A stretch of DNA of 64,000 nt from the NCBI RefSeq assembly GCF_030623445.1, contig NZ_CP130613.1, positions 1,922,001 through 1,986,000 of the forward strand, written 5' to 3'. Numbering within the stretch: the first letter of the stretch is position 1; each line of letters begins with the position of its first letter. Source of the stretch: Pseudogemmatithrix spongiicola. Lineage in GTDB: Bacteria; Gemmatimonadota; Gemmatimonadetes; Gemmatimonadales; Gemmatimonadaceae. The notes beneath the pieces are model-generated. The model was not told where the DNA came from. It saw only the letters and a program-made list of their open reading frames with translations, and ran no database searches. The position numbers and the translations under genes are program-made. Shown in pieces: positions 26,651 through 40,508 of the stretch.

Positions 26651-27322
26651 TCAGTCCCGATGCTTGAGCATTCGCAGCGCCGTGCCGATCTCGGCCCCAC
26701 TGAATCCCCGCCGAGCCAAGAACCCATACAGCCGTCGCTGCTGCACCGCCGGCTCCAACCCCTGAAGACTGCGCAGCTTCTTCGCTGCCGCTACCTCGAC
26801 CGCTGAGCGCAGCGTCTCCCCGCGTGCTGCCGCGTCATCGGCCTGCTCCTCAAGTTCCAACGCCATCTCACCGAGCACACGCTCCGCGATATCACGAGCG
26901 ACCCCCTTCCGCGCCAACTCCGCCGCAACCCGCCGCGGCCCGAACCCCCGACTCGGCGCCAACCGCGCCCGCGCAAAGGTCCGCGCGTACGCCACATCAT
27001 CAAGCAGCCCCAGCGCCGTCAGCCTCTCGATGGCCGGCGTGATCTGCTCGTCCGTGAACTCTTTCGTGCGCAGATAGCGCCGCAAATCCGCCTCGCTGCG
27101 CGCGCGTGCACCGAGGGTGGCGAGCGCCTTGTCGTAACACGCGATGCCCTGGGCGCTGGATTCGAGGCGCCGCTGCTCCGCTTCGTCAAGCACGCGACCG
27201 ACCTTGAGCTTGAGGTCGGCAATCAATTCGAGGCTGATGGTCAGCGTAGTGGCGGCGTCAAGCTCGAGTTCGAAGCGACCGGGCTTTCGCGGGTGCTCAC
27301 GTAGCTTCGTAATCGTCGCCAT
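26651..27322 (-). CDS. recX: Regulatory protein RecX
   Basis: Binds RecA filaments and limits recombinase and coprotease activity. The 223-residue protein has the RecX pattern of repeated three-helix modules: ALATLGARARSEADLRRYLRTKEF, LTALGLLDDVAYARTFARARL, GFGPRRVAAELARKGVARDIA and RRLYGFLARRGFSGAEIGTAL. The N-terminal 75 residues form an additional strand-rich domain (ITKLREHPRKPGRFELEL) often seen in longer RecX proteins. It lies downstream of recA in the same direction with a terminator and a palindromic repeat between them, so readthrough is likely limited. Confidence 0.92.
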   Translation of the reverse strand: MATITKLREHPRKPGRFELELDAATTLTISLELIADLKLKVGRVLDEAEQRRLESSAQGIACYDKALATLGARARSEADLRRYLRTKEFTDEQITPAIERLTALGLLDDVAYARTFARARLAPSRGFGPRRVAAELARKGVARDIAERVLGEMALELEEQADDAAARGETLRSAVEVAAAKKLRSLQGLEPAVQQRRLYGFLARRGFSGAEIGTALRMLKHRD

Positions 27323-27323
27323 G

Positions 27324-27545
27324 AAGGGAGGAGGGAGAGGATGGAGAGATGGAAGGATTGGGAGACGATAACGGGAGATGGGCGGTGATCGTGCGGCGGG
27401 AGAGGGGAGATGAGAGAGGCCCGCCTCTCACAGTCACCGCGGCTTCAACGCCTCACGTTTCTGTTGACTCCTCACGCCTCACCGCGCACGACCGCCGCCC
27501 GTCTCCCGTTCCTGCTCACCCCTCCCCTCTCCCACGACGGGTGAG
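27324..27545. repeat. Diverged copy A of the large palindromic intergenic repeat
   Basis: A purine-rich left half (GGAGGGAGAGGATGGAGAGA...) is followed by a pyrimidine-rich right half. The clearest arms are 27370-27395 and 27485-27510: 26 bases each with three mismatches. An inner GAGAGG/CCTCTC hairpin sits between. It shares the GGGAGAYGGGCGG core and the general layout of copies B-H, but the outer sequence has drifted. It begins at the recX start codon. Confidence 0.55.
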
Positions 27546-27560
27546 CCGAAGCAACCGCCG

Positions 27561-27643
27561 AAAAAAGAGCCGAGGGCGGACCCTCAGTGGAACGGCGGGG
27601 ATTCCGGGCCCCGACGACTCACCGTTGATCACACCCTCGGCTC
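27561..27643 (-). terminator. Probable rho-independent terminator of recA
   Basis: On the minus strand GAGCCGAGGG (complement of 27634-27643) can pair with CCCTCGGCTC (complement of 27567-27576) and is followed by TTTTTT (complement of 27561-27566). The 57-base loop holds its own small hairpins (GAGGG CGGA CCCTC at 27572-27585). It lies 38-120 bases after the recA stop. Confidence 0.6.
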
Positions 27644-27680
27644 ACTTTCAGCTTACAGCTCAGAGCTTACAGCTCCGACG

Positions 27681-28721
27681 TCACTCGTCTCCCTCTGGCT
27701 CGACCTCGGCCTTCGTGATCCCAAGCACCGCCTTCACCTTCTCCTCGATCTCCGCCATCACCTTCGGGTTATCCCGCAGGAACAGCTTCGCGTTCTCACG
27801 CCCCTGCCCGATCCGCTGCGAGCCGTAGCTGTACCAGGCCCCCGACTTCTCGATGATCCCGCTCTCCGCCCCGATATCAACTAGCAGCGACGTGTGCGAG
27901 ATCCCCTCGGCGTACATGATGTCGAACTCCGCCTGACGGAACGGCGGCGCCACCTTGTTCTTCACCACCTTCACCCGGACGTGCGACCCGATCACGTCCT
28001 CCTTCTCCTTCACCGGGCCGATGCGGCGGATGTCGAGCCGCAGCGACGCGTAGAACTTCAGAGCCTTGCCGCCGGTGGTCGTCTCGGGGTTGCCGAACAT
28101 CACCCCGATCTTCTCACGCAGCTGGTTGATGAACACCACCGAGCAGTTCGACCGGGCAATCGCACCCGTGAGCTTCCGGAGTGCCTGACTCATCAGGCGG
28201 GCCTGCAGGCCCACGTGCGAGTCGCCCATCTCCCCCTCGATCTCGGCCTTCGGCACCAGCGCCGCCACCGAGTCAATCACGATCACATCGACTGCCCCGC
28301 TGCGCACCAGGATCTCGCAGATCTCGAGGGCCTGCTCACCGGTGTCCGGCTGCGACACCAGCAACTTCTCGACATCCACGCCCAGCTTCGCCGCGTACTC
28401 CGTATCCAGCGCGTGCTCCGCATCGATGAAGGCTGCGGTGCCGCCAAGCTTCTGTGCATTGGCCACGACGTGCAGACACACCGTCGTCTTGCCGCTGCTT
28501 TCCGGTCCGTAGATCTCGGTGATGCGGCCCTTCGGGAATCCGCCGACGCCAATCGCGGCATCGAGGTTGATCGCTCCCGTCGGAATCGCCTCCACCTTCA
28601 CATGCGCGCCATCCTTACCCATCTGCATGATGGCGCCCTTCCCGAACGACTTCTCGATCTGCGACACCGCGAGCCCAAGCGCCTTCTTGCGATCGTCCTG
28701 CTGTGCCGCCGTCGTAGCCAT
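27681..28721 (-). CDS. recA: Recombinase RecA
   Basis: ATP-dependent strand-exchange protein and LexA coprotease. The 346-residue length is standard. Walker A is GPESSGKTT at residues 72-80, Walker [11 protein letters not shown], loop L1 region [24 protein letters not shown], loop L2 [21 protein letters not shown], and the acidic tail (EVEPEGDE) is present. It starts at the ATG at 28721. Upstream lie a long untranslated leader with a hairpin and a promoter overlapped by phased GAAC-type repeats, which may be the SOS operator. Downstream are a terminator, a palindromic repeat and recX. Confidence 0.98.
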
Positions 28722-28762
28722 CGTTGCCTCGGAGAGGTAAAAGGGAATCTACCCGCATGGGA

Positions 28763-28782
28763 GTTCGGGGCTACCCCCGAAC
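28763..28782 (-). other. Hairpin in the recA leader
   Basis: GTTCGGGG (28763-28770), loop CTAC, CCCCGAAC (28775-28782): a perfect 8-base stem. With the promoter proposed at 28821-28848 it would lie in the 5' untranslated region, about 42 bases before the recA start. Because it reads GTTC...GAAC it could also be a DNA-level regulator site rather than an RNA structure. Confidence 0.45.
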
Positions 28783-28805
28783 GAATAGCGAAAATCTGCG
28801 CCGCC

Positions 28806-28848
28806 GAACTGATACCGAAGAAAGTACGAACCGCGCAGGCGATGTCAA
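28806..28848 (-). promoter_or_regulatory. recA promoter with phased GAAC-type direct repeats (possible SOS operator)
   Basis: On the minus strand TTGACA (complement of 28843-28848) and TACTTT (complement of 28821-28826) are 16 bases apart, a reasonable sigma-70-type promoter. On the plus strand GAAC (28806-28809), GAAG (28817-28820) and GAAC (28828-28831) repeat every 11 bases, covering the -10 region. Direct repeats GTTC-N7-GTTC are the LexA site in Alphaproteobacteria; use here is by analogy only. Confidence 0.5.
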
Positions 28849-29062
28849 TAGGGAATCCCCAGTGAATTTCGCCGCCGTATACTTTCGACACACCGTTTGG
28901 TGATTTTCTGACAAATCATTGTAATACAACAACTTAAACCGTCTCAGCGACGTGGATACTTTGTTGGCAATTTTGTCGCAGAGACCACTTTTCAACACTT
29001 TCCCACATCGGCTTGCTCGCCTTCGCGCATAGCCGAAAGCGCGCGATATCGGGTCGGATTTC
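28849..29062. other. Gap between recA promoter and yraN, no gene recognised
   Basis: The recA-yraN gap as a whole spans 28722-29062. Apart from the hairpin and promoter listed above it holds an AT-richer stretch (about 28860-28990) with short A/T runs, and no convincing reading frame, RNA gene or repeat. Additional upstream promoter elements may lie here. Confidence 0.5.
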
Positions 29063-29431
29063 TCAGCCGTTGCCCACCGAAAACGCATTTGTGACGTGCT
29101 TCACCTGCACCCGGTCGGCGGCGACCAGAATCCCGACCACATCGAACTGATACTGCTCGCCGGAGCGTCCGTGCCGATCGATCCAGACCCGCGCGGATTT
29201 GCTGAGCTCGCGCTGTTTGCGATGATGCACGGCTTCGACCGGGTCGCCGAATTCCTCACCCTTCCGTGCCTTCACTTCGACGAAGGCCACGAGCGCATCG
29301 CGCTGCGCGACGAGATCGATGTCGCGGCGGCCGAAGCGGAAGCGCCGCGCCAGGATCGTGTAGCCATGTTTGCGCAGCCAGCGTTCGGCGATGCGTTCAC
29401 CGAGTTGGCCGAGGCGTTGGTTGTGTGACAT
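29063..29431 (-). CDS. yraN: YraN/UPF0102 family protein, restriction-endonuclease-like fold
   Basis: A 122-residue protein of the UPF0102 family. LGERIAERWLRKHGYTILARRFRFGRRDIDLVAQRD and AFVEVKARKGEEFGDPVEAV carry the PD-(D/E)xK nuclease core: Glu in GERIAE, Asp in DIDLVA and the E-V-K pair in VEVKAR. The usual length is 115-130 residues. Function is not established; a role in DNA processing or repair is often suggested. It lies in the same direction as recA, 341 bases upstream of it, and downstream of palindromic repeat copy B. Confidence 0.88.
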   Translation of the reverse strand: MSHNQRLGQLGERIAERWLRKHGYTILARRFRFGRRDIDLVAQRDALVAFVEVKARKGEEFGDPVEAVHHRKQRELSKSARVWIDRHGRSGEQYQFDVVGILVAADRVQVKHVTNAFSVGNG

Positions 29432-29503
29432 GGCGGGAATGTGCGGACGTCTCCCGCCGACTATGGCATCGGTTCATTGCATGCCGTGGCGCGATTTGCC
29501 GAC

Positions 29504-29656
29504 TGGGAGACGTCGCAGGGGGACAGGGGCGGAGACAGGGAGACGCGAATGGGAGAGAGGGGGGGGCAGACGTCTCACGAACGTCGCACGTCTCCCCACC
29601 CCTCTCCCCCATTCTCTTCTCTCACCCTCCGCCCCTGCCCCGTCCCACGTCTGCCA
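29504..29656. repeat. Large palindromic intergenic repeat, copy B
   Basis: The left arm from TGGGAGACGTCGCAGGGGG (29504) is complementary along most of about 72 bases to the right arm ending CCCACGTCTGCCA (29656). The centre is CAGACGTCTCACGAACGT. The left arm is strongly purine-rich with G runs, and the right arm pyrimidine-rich. Left arm positions GGGGCGGAGA and AATGGGAGAGA are the conserved core. A separate GGACGTCTCCC at 29445-29455 just before it looks like a stray arm end. Confidence 0.9.
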
Positions 29657-29672
29657 CTCGGGGCCCGCGCAG

Positions 29673-29891
29673 TTAACTCGCCGCCGTCTCCAGCACCCCC
29701 GGCATCGCAGAAAGCACCAAGCGTTGAAGCGCGACTTTCTCGCTGGCGCGGTCGATGTCGATCCCGACCAGGTTTCCGTTCGCGTCGTAGTCCAACACCA
29801 CGCCATCCGAGACCTCGACGCTATCTACGCTGGTCGCTTCGGAGAGGTCGATGTACAGCGAATCCGTGTCGCGATGATAACTCAGTCTCAC
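29673..29891 (-). CDS. DUF2283 family protein
   Basis: A 72-residue protein whose first 50 residues match the DUF2283 pattern: SYHRDTDSLYIDLS, then VSDGVVLDYDANGNLVGIDID. The C-terminal 20 residues form a helix. It overlaps the upstream 80-residue gene by 4 bases and is followed, 17 bases on, by palindromic repeat copy B. DUF2283 genes commonly come right after a small DUF4258-like gene, and the pair has been proposed to act as a toxin-antitoxin module; I cannot show that from this sequence. Confidence 0.85.
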   Translation of the reverse strand: MRLSYHRDTDSLYIDLSEATSVDSVEVSDGVVLDYDANGNLVGIDIDRASEKVALQRLVLSAMPGVLETAAS

Positions 29892-30130
29892 GGGCGAAAC
29901 CTCCGGTCGGGAAACGCATTGTGGATTGTCCGCCGATCCTCGAGCGTCACCACTCGGAGGAATCTACCCTCGAGTTCGGGAACTCGGGCCCAGAAGCGCC
30001 ACCGCCCGCTCGGCTCGCGCTCGGCGCGATACGGGTTGGCTACGACGGCGACGCACCACTCTACCCTGAGGTAGGGTCGCTTTCGCAGCACGTCGCGTTC
30101 GAAGTAGGCGGTGAATCGTGGCTCGGGCAC
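29888..30130 (-). CDS. Small DUF4258-like protein paired with DUF2283
   Basis: An 80-residue basic protein: AYFERDVLRKRPYLRVEWC, VVANPYRAEREPSGRWRFWARV, then LEGRFLRVVTLEDRRTIHNAFPDRRF. The strand pattern and the closing R-V-V-T-L-E-D...I-H-N-A-F motif are what I associate with small RelE-like/DUF4258 proteins found with DUF2283. The start ATG is at 30130 and the stop overlaps the DUF2283 start. It would be the toxin-like partner if the pair is a toxin-antitoxin module. A 13-base string CACTCTACCCTGA inside it (about 30058-30070) recurs near the stop of the next gene (30367-30379). Confidence 0.7.
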   Translation of the reverse strand: MPEPRFTAYFERDVLRKRPYLRVEWCVAVVANPYRAEREPSGRWRFWARVPELEGRFLRVVTLEDRRTIHNAFPDRRFRP

Positions 30131-39407: not shown

Positions 39408-40508
39408 CTATCCGACTTGCAACAGCGTGCGCTCGAACGTCGTGAGTCGCTCCGGACCGTCGGTCGTGAGCACCACGTCGTCCTCGATGCGGACGCCACC
39501 CCAGCCTTCGAGATAGATCCCCGGTTCGATCGTGACGACCGCGCCAGGGGCCAACGGGGCCTCGGCCGTCTTCGCCAACCGGGGAGCTTCGTGGATCTCC
39601 AGACCGATCCCGTGCCCCGTCGAGTGACCAAAGGCGGCGCCGAAGCCGCGGCGCTCAATGTAGTCTCTCGCGAGGGCGTCGGCATCCCTTCCGCGCATTC
39701 CCGCCCGAACAGCGGCCGAAGCGCTCCCGTTTGCCTCCCGAACCACATCGTGGATCTCCTGCTGCCGCGCGTCCGGCGCGCGCCCCACGATGAACGTGCG
39801 CGTGATGTCGCTCACGTAGCCGCCGCTGGTCGCGCCGAAGTCGAAGAGCAGGAGGTCGCCCTTCTCGATGACCTGGGCCGACGCGCGGGCATGCGGGAGC
39901 GCGGAGCGCGGGCCCGCCGCGACGATCGTCTCGAAGGCCGTCCGCTCGCTGCCGGCGAGCCGCATCTCGTACTCGAGTAGGCCGGCGACCGCGAGCTCGG
40001 TCATGCCGGCGCGCAGCTGCGGCAAGGTGCGCGCGAGCGCGTGTTCGGCGATCTGCACCGCGGCGCGGATGTGCGCGAGCTCGCTGGCGTCCTTCGACTC
40101 GCGCAGCACCTCCACGAGGTTGAGCGCGGGCCGCCACTTCCAGCCCGCGCCTTCCCCGCCCTCTGCCACGAAGCGCGCCGCATCCTGATGCGTCACGTGC
40201 GCGCTCTCGAAGGCGAGCACCTCGATCCGCGGCAGCAGCTTCAGCTCCTTCCACAGCCGCGTCCACAGCGACATCTGCTCGATGGCGACCCGCACCTCGG
40301 CGGCCACCTCGTGCTTCACCTGCGTCGCGTAGCGGAAATCCGTGAGCAGCAGCGCGTCATCGGCCGTGACCAGCACCAGCCCGTTCGAACCCGTGAAGCC
40401 GGTGAGGTAGCGCACGTTCGGCAGGGCGCTGACGAGCAGCGCATCGAGCTGACTCTGGGCCAGCGATGCGCGCAACCGCGCGAGACGCTCGGCGTAGGGG
40501 ACGGACAT
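39408..40508 (-). CDS. Xaa-Pro aminopeptidase (M24 family)
   Basis: A 366-residue metallopeptidase that removes N-terminal residues before proline. I start it at the ATG at 40508 (SVPYAERLARLRASL). The creatinase N-domain includes VRYLTGFTGSNGL. The catalytic domain has the metal ligands in LLFDFGATSGGYVSDITRTF (two Asp), AFGHSTGHGIGLEIHE (His), TIEPGIYLEGWGGVRIEDDV (two Glu) and the usual M24 order. It overlaps the HepT-like gene by a single base. It may form a unit with the MntA/HepT genes but is functionally unrelated. Confidence 0.93.
   Translation of the reverse strand: MSVPYAERLARLRASLAQSQLDALLVSALPNVRYLTGFTGSNGLVLVTADDALLLTDFRYATQVKHEVAAEVRVAIEQMSLWTRLWKELKLLPRIEVLAFESAHVTHQDAARFVAEGGEGAGWKWRPALNLVEVLRESKDASELAHIRAAVQIAEHALARTLPQLRAGMTELAVAGLLEYEMRLAGSERTAFETIVAAGPRSALPHARASAQVIEKGDLLLFDFGATSGGYVSDITRTFIVGRAPDARQQEIHDVVREANGSASAAVRAGMRGRDADALARDYIERRGFGAAFGHSTGHGIGLEIHEAPRLAKTAEAPLAPGAVVTIEPGIYLEGWGGVRIEDDVVLTTDGPERLTTFERTLLQVG

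Follow-up and report, generated by a model that had tools for sequence, protein, structure and literature searches.

Short phased repeats lie over the recA promoter of this Gemmatimonadota genome (a single contig of 3.26 Mb), and the question they raise is whether they form the operator through which LexA would control the SOS response and, if so, what kind of operator this is. In the stretch that we analysed (64 kb, G000:C1:1922001-1986000, henceforth the window), recA is encoded on the minus strand at 27681..28721, as an open reading frame of 346 aa with a Pfam RecA match at 1.8e-140. Its promoter sequence, on the same strand, consists of a -35 element, TTGACA (28843..28848), a 16-bp spacer and a -10 element, TACTTT (28821..28826); judged by eye, several relatives have TTGA-type hexamers resembling this -35 element 16-17 bp upstream of the -10 element. 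The initial annotation had pointed to GAAC-N7-GAAG-N7-GAAC with an 11-base period over the -10 element, a pattern that is indeed present at 28806-28831 on the plus strand and reads GTTC-N7-CTTC-N7-GTTC on the sense strand of recA.

Taken as written, this word makes a poor motif. Allowing at most one mismatch, GAAC-N7-GAAC has 27 matches in the window where 39.9 are expected, and we rejected it for want of enrichment. On this count one might suspect that the repeats are simply what GC-rich DNA throws up by chance, an explanation that we consider barely credible since the same repeats in their TTCGG form are rare, sited at SOS genes and conserved. The form TTCG-N7-TTCGG occurs 28 times in the genome (13 times for the reversed control), and seven of these matches fall at SOS genes: three at recA, two at lexA (1763645 and 1763671), where the annotation had suggested looking for the same spacing, and two (2851253 and 2851288) directly upstream of an imuA-like gene, which the annotation had also singled out along with dnaE2. 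This gene encodes a RecA homologue, has a gene for a DnaE2-type polymerase downstream of it, and owes the name imuA to its RecA-like domain and its neighbourhood. With the direct repeat recurring at lexA and the imuA-like gene, the earlier suggestion of an SOS operator holds up as a candidate. Many of the remaining matches fall within long reading frames and many look like chance occurrences; those at L037 (peptidase-like), L045 (exonuclease), L053 (methyltransferase), L060 and others are unproven as targets.

The three copies upstream of recA keep the 11-bp period, and two of them overlap across the TTGACA-16-TACTTT promoter. Predicted LexA box 1, TTCGTACTTTCTTCGG (28815..28830, minus strand; G000:C1:1950815-1950830), spans the -10 element; predicted box 1b, TTCGGTATCAGTTCGG (28804..28819, minus strand), has one half-site in common with box 1; and predicted box 2, TTCGCTATTCGTTCGG (28777..28792, minus strand), starts 27 bp past box 1b. 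All three are matches to TTCG-N7-TTCGG. A second box is found in nine of the 11 other recA leaders that we compared and is absent from L007 and L008, and a copy of the box 1b type, sharing a half-site with box 1, is found in none of the 11. Scored with a matrix that we trained on sites in the lexA promoters of other records, the three recA boxes rank second to fourth in the window at 12.3-13.8 bits, a ranking that depends on the pattern because the training sites were themselves picked by TTCG-N7-TTCG. These scores lie below the fifth percentile of the lexA sites (17.7 bits; median 22.9), and the top match in the window, at 39704 with 22.7 bits, sits within a long reading frame.

The promoter of lexA itself is where the motif is clearest. 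Among the best 80 LexA matches listed for named records, we considered all loci with upstream DNA (L168, which begins within the gene, was left out), and 79 of 79 have TTCG pairs spaced at period 11, which form two tandem boxes in 77. Letter shuffles of the same upstream regions, which do not keep dinucleotides, yield a period-11 pair in 0.3 of 79 and tandem boxes in 0.0. Seventy-eight of the best 80 matches listed bear Gemmatimonadota names, and a further one carries the label Kuenenia, which is probably wrong. Every other period from 6 to 24 is found in 0 to 33 lexA promoters, the highest count belonging to period 15, consistent with the gap between two tandem boxes. The consensus of the lexA sites is C-TTCGG-N4-T-G-TTCGG, in which the first letters of the half-sites are weak (the first half-site letter being C in 57% and G in 8%) whereas G follows TTCG in 99% and 96%. 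By eye, box 1 lies between the -35 and -10 elements and box 2 directly past the -10 element; in our genome, box 1 fills the spacer of TTGTGC-17-TACCGT and box 2 again lies past the -10 element.

Does the motif hold at other genes and beyond close relatives? Upstream of recA, TTCG-N7-TTCGG is present at all 30 loci read (our own included), which were drawn from 60 genomes with a match; 15 of the 30 are exactly TTCG-TANTTT-N-TTCG, whose half-sites flank a -10-like core, and the other 15 vary in the letters that separate the half-sites. We found the tandem pattern in 57 of the 61 relatives searched and the control pattern in three genomes. These relatives contribute 83 tandem matches, 56 of them upstream of lexA, 12 upstream of recA and 12 upstream of imuA-like genes; the remaining three adjoin no matched gene and resemble recA, lexA and imuA boxes by sequence. 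The motif is thus common to the regions upstream of lexA, recA and the imuA-like gene and is conserved in orthologous promoters. Across the phylum, a search that required TTCGG found the tandem pattern in 218 of 249 genomes and the control in eight; the named records used for lexA and the other genome sets may overlap. None of the six genomes of the single other class sampled (f10) has the TTCGG tandem pattern. We searched 26 of the 31 genomes without a tandem match for LexA and obtained 20 full-length lexA loci, four genomes with distant LexA-like proteins only and two with none; at all 20 full-length loci there is at least one TTCG-N7-TTCG. In the f10 class, five of five lexA promoters read have two copies, for example TTCGCTTTTTGTTCG, four of them with TATAAT. 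Taking the 79 of 79 and 20 of 20 loci together, the direct repeat is present in every lexA promoter read in the phylum, while the letters that follow TTCG differ between the Gemmatimonadota classes sampled. In another genome (G005, L203), genes resembling imuA and imuB (the latter by a weak IMS_C match) are separated by about 3.3 kb; both have a box of their own, the imuB-like gene two.

From these comparisons we infer, with high confidence, that the repeats upstream of recA constitute the LexA operator of Gemmatimonadota, a direct repeat of TTCGG at which LexA would bind and repress, with induction upon damage. One LexA dimer may occupy each direct repeat NTTCGG-N5-NTTCGG, its two DNA-binding domains arranged head to tail at a distance of roughly one helical turn. 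Of the three boxes at recA, two would cover the -10 element and the start region and the third would lie in the early transcribed region, and bound LexA would block RNA polymerase because the boxes fall on just these parts. Once DNA is damaged, RecA filaments would bring LexA to cleave itself, and recA, lexA and imuA would be switched on.

The same positions could be read differently. Since the repeats sit on the -10 element and in the leader, and since a G4-N3/4-C4 stretch and TAGATTCCC are also found repeatedly among leaders of the genus, one might imagine that they serve the promoter or the RNA leader (as start-site context or an attenuator hairpin) and involve no repressor. Three observations argue against this and leave it, in our judgement, very improbable. 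First, the identical word in the same 11-bp phase takes up different positions relative to the -10 element, lying on both sides of it at lexA and across it at recA. Second, 80 of the 83 tandem matches are at lexA, recA or imuA. Third, the perfect hairpin of the recA leader is unconserved. This hairpin, GTTCGGGG-CTAC-CCCCGAAC (28763..28782, no strand assigned), is the palindrome that the annotation had reported; it is real and is the sole copy in the window. One of its arms doubles as the second half-site of box 2. We located the hairpin segment in 11 of 12 recA leaders, our own included (the copy in L007 lacks a full second box), and among these 11 the outer GTTC/GAAC pairing exists in our genome only, and the pairing cannot serve as evidence for an operator; a conserved hairpin was rejected. 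The 64 kb contain 45 perfect inverted repeats of 8 bp with a loop of 3-8, or about 0.06 per 86 bp. We regard the recA leader hairpin as mostly coincidence and as weak evidence for an operator.

Two further features of the leaders deserve mention. The segment TAGATTCCC (28743..28751, minus strand) is conserved at ten of the 12 recA loci L004-L015, our own included, and absent from L007 and L008; it is possibly a second -10 element or a leader RNA element, and by eye we saw no good -35 element for it. The G4-N3/4-C4 stretch, in the region 28743-28782 of the window, recurs in several recA leaders of the genus.

If the repeats are an operator, is LexA the protein that reads them? The genome encodes a LexA with LexA DNA-binding and S24 domains, in which Ala87-Gly88, Ser122 and Lys160, invariant in 14 of 14 sequences, correspond to the cleavage residues of the E. 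coli protein; with Ala-Gly, Ser and Lys kept, this LexA is predicted to be cleavable. It also encodes a second LexA-like protein (L002, G000:C1:1187079-1187588) with the same two kinds of domain, and one may therefore ask whether some other DNA-repair regulator, such as this protein, binds the direct repeat, with LexA acting elsewhere. We think this improbable. Of the 27 genomes that gave one LexA-like match and no more, 23 retain the tandem boxes, which suggests that the boxes can do without a second LexA, although many of these genomes are drafts in which a paralogue may have been missed. Moreover, the 183 bases read upstream of the second LexA-like gene contain no TTCGG box. At lexA itself the box comes as a tandem pair and is conserved best, as expected under LexA autoregulation.

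How, then, does a TTCGG direct repeat read by LexA compare with known LexA operators? Seventeen LexA operator motifs have been reported, and operators differ between bacterial groups (passages of PMC8565304). Titles and abstract openings, in literature that leaves most subscription journals outside, yielded no LexA operator for Gemmatimonadota; the passages of PMC3919608 concern polymerases. The annotation had likened the recA repeats to the alphaproteobacterial LexA box, which passages of PMC9578287 and PMC8565304 give, for Caulobacter, as GTTC-N7-GTTC. The likeness stands as regards the direct repeat, the 11-bp period, the TTC core and the role as a LexA operator of SOS genes, and fails as regards the half-site, which is TTCGG rather than GTTC/GAAC: the first half-site letter in Gemmatimonadota is seldom G, whereas the G after TTCG is near-invariant. 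Exact GTTC-N7-GTTC occurs upstream of three of 79 lexA and four of 30 recA genes, so that Gemmatimonadota lack the alphaproteobacterial consensus, although the control for this comparison is weak, with the exact word present at one of five alphaproteobacterial lexA genes fetched (Sphingomonas). The proteins differ too, the recognition region being SLATVHEHL in Gemmatimonadota and SKSGIHRLI in alphaproteobacteria. In a LexA tree of 26 rows, the 11 Gemmatimonadota sequences form one clade (98/94) and the five alphaproteobacterial sequences another (100/97); a joint clade of the two is not rejected (p-AU 0.066), the deep order of the tree being unresolved. Given the other half-site and the separate LexA clade, we regard the Gemmatimonadota system as alphaproteobacterial-like in its working and not as a member of that group.

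In its half-site, the operator is close to the Gram-positive LexA box, CGAAC-N4-GTTCG (a passage of PMC9578287), with GTTCG resembling NTTCGG and TVH-HL common to the recognition regions; the DNA-binding domain of our LexA is 42% identical to that of Bacillus and 31-34% identical to those of two alphaproteobacteria. Yet the Gram-positive box is an inverted repeat and the Gemmatimonadota one a direct repeat: GAAC-N4-GTTC, exact or relaxed, is found upstream of none of 30 recA and none of 99 lexA genes, and its relaxed form is found in six of six Firmicutes and Actinobacteria controls. A further comparison is with the direct repeat of Balneolaeota, TTACACATATTTTWTACATA, which according to passages of PMC7739468 was found by comparing lexA promoters and validated by gel shift. 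Both are phylum-level direct-repeat LexA operators derived from lexA promoters; they differ in half-site and in that the Balneolaeota operator has gel-shift support whereas ours is known from sequence. Gemmatimonadota thus add a case of direct repeats that bears on how LexA operator geometry changes. One scenario, which we put forward tentatively and consider unlikely as a whole, is that Gemmatimonadota LexA arrived at the direct repeat independently, keeping a Gram-positive-like half-site and turning the arrangement of the dimer, that this was fixed before the sampled classes split, and that the regulon has come to include restriction-modification genes, in view of the boxes at three of 14 C5-cytosine methyltransferase genes and next to a restriction-endonuclease/dprA pair described below.

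With an operator defined, the damage regulon of Gemmatimonadota can be predicted and tested. The usual SOS genes that we checked for a box were recA, lexA, the imuA-like gene and uvrA-type genes. The last of these, which the annotation had named as a further place to look, disappointed: neither of the two uvrA-type genes in our genome has a TTCGG box, and uvrA was rejected as a target there. Control of uvrA varies between phyla.

Some other genes with boxes came to our attention along the way. In eight genomes, five of which have C5-cytosine methyltransferase genes, three of 14 such genes have exact boxes 50-73 bp upstream of the conserved domain: L053 (G000:C1:2373432), L206 and L207 (G005:C1:655662 and 2849221). 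The methyltransferase gene of L206 adjoins a gene with a GIY-YIG domain, and two more methyltransferase loci (L254 and L255) have a near-box, TTCGGTGTTTNCTCGG. Membership of methyltransferase genes in the LexA regulon is suggestive, the pattern having been noticed post hoc. At L051 (G000:C1:2131197) a strong box (24.9 bits) lies beside a dprA-type gene, on the strand opposite to it, and this gene follows one with a restriction-endonuclease domain (RE_endonuc) that is presumably type III. At L045 (G000:C1:1873014) a box that adjoins TAGATT starts 34 bp upstream of an RNase_T-type exonuclease gene. Finally, the window has an imperfect long inverted repeat at 29510-29652, rich in GGGAGA/TCTCCC, to which 35 of the 37 sub-threshold microRNA-family matches from an Rfam search of 27001-30000 fall; CT-rich stretches like those of this repeat recur upstream of imuA.
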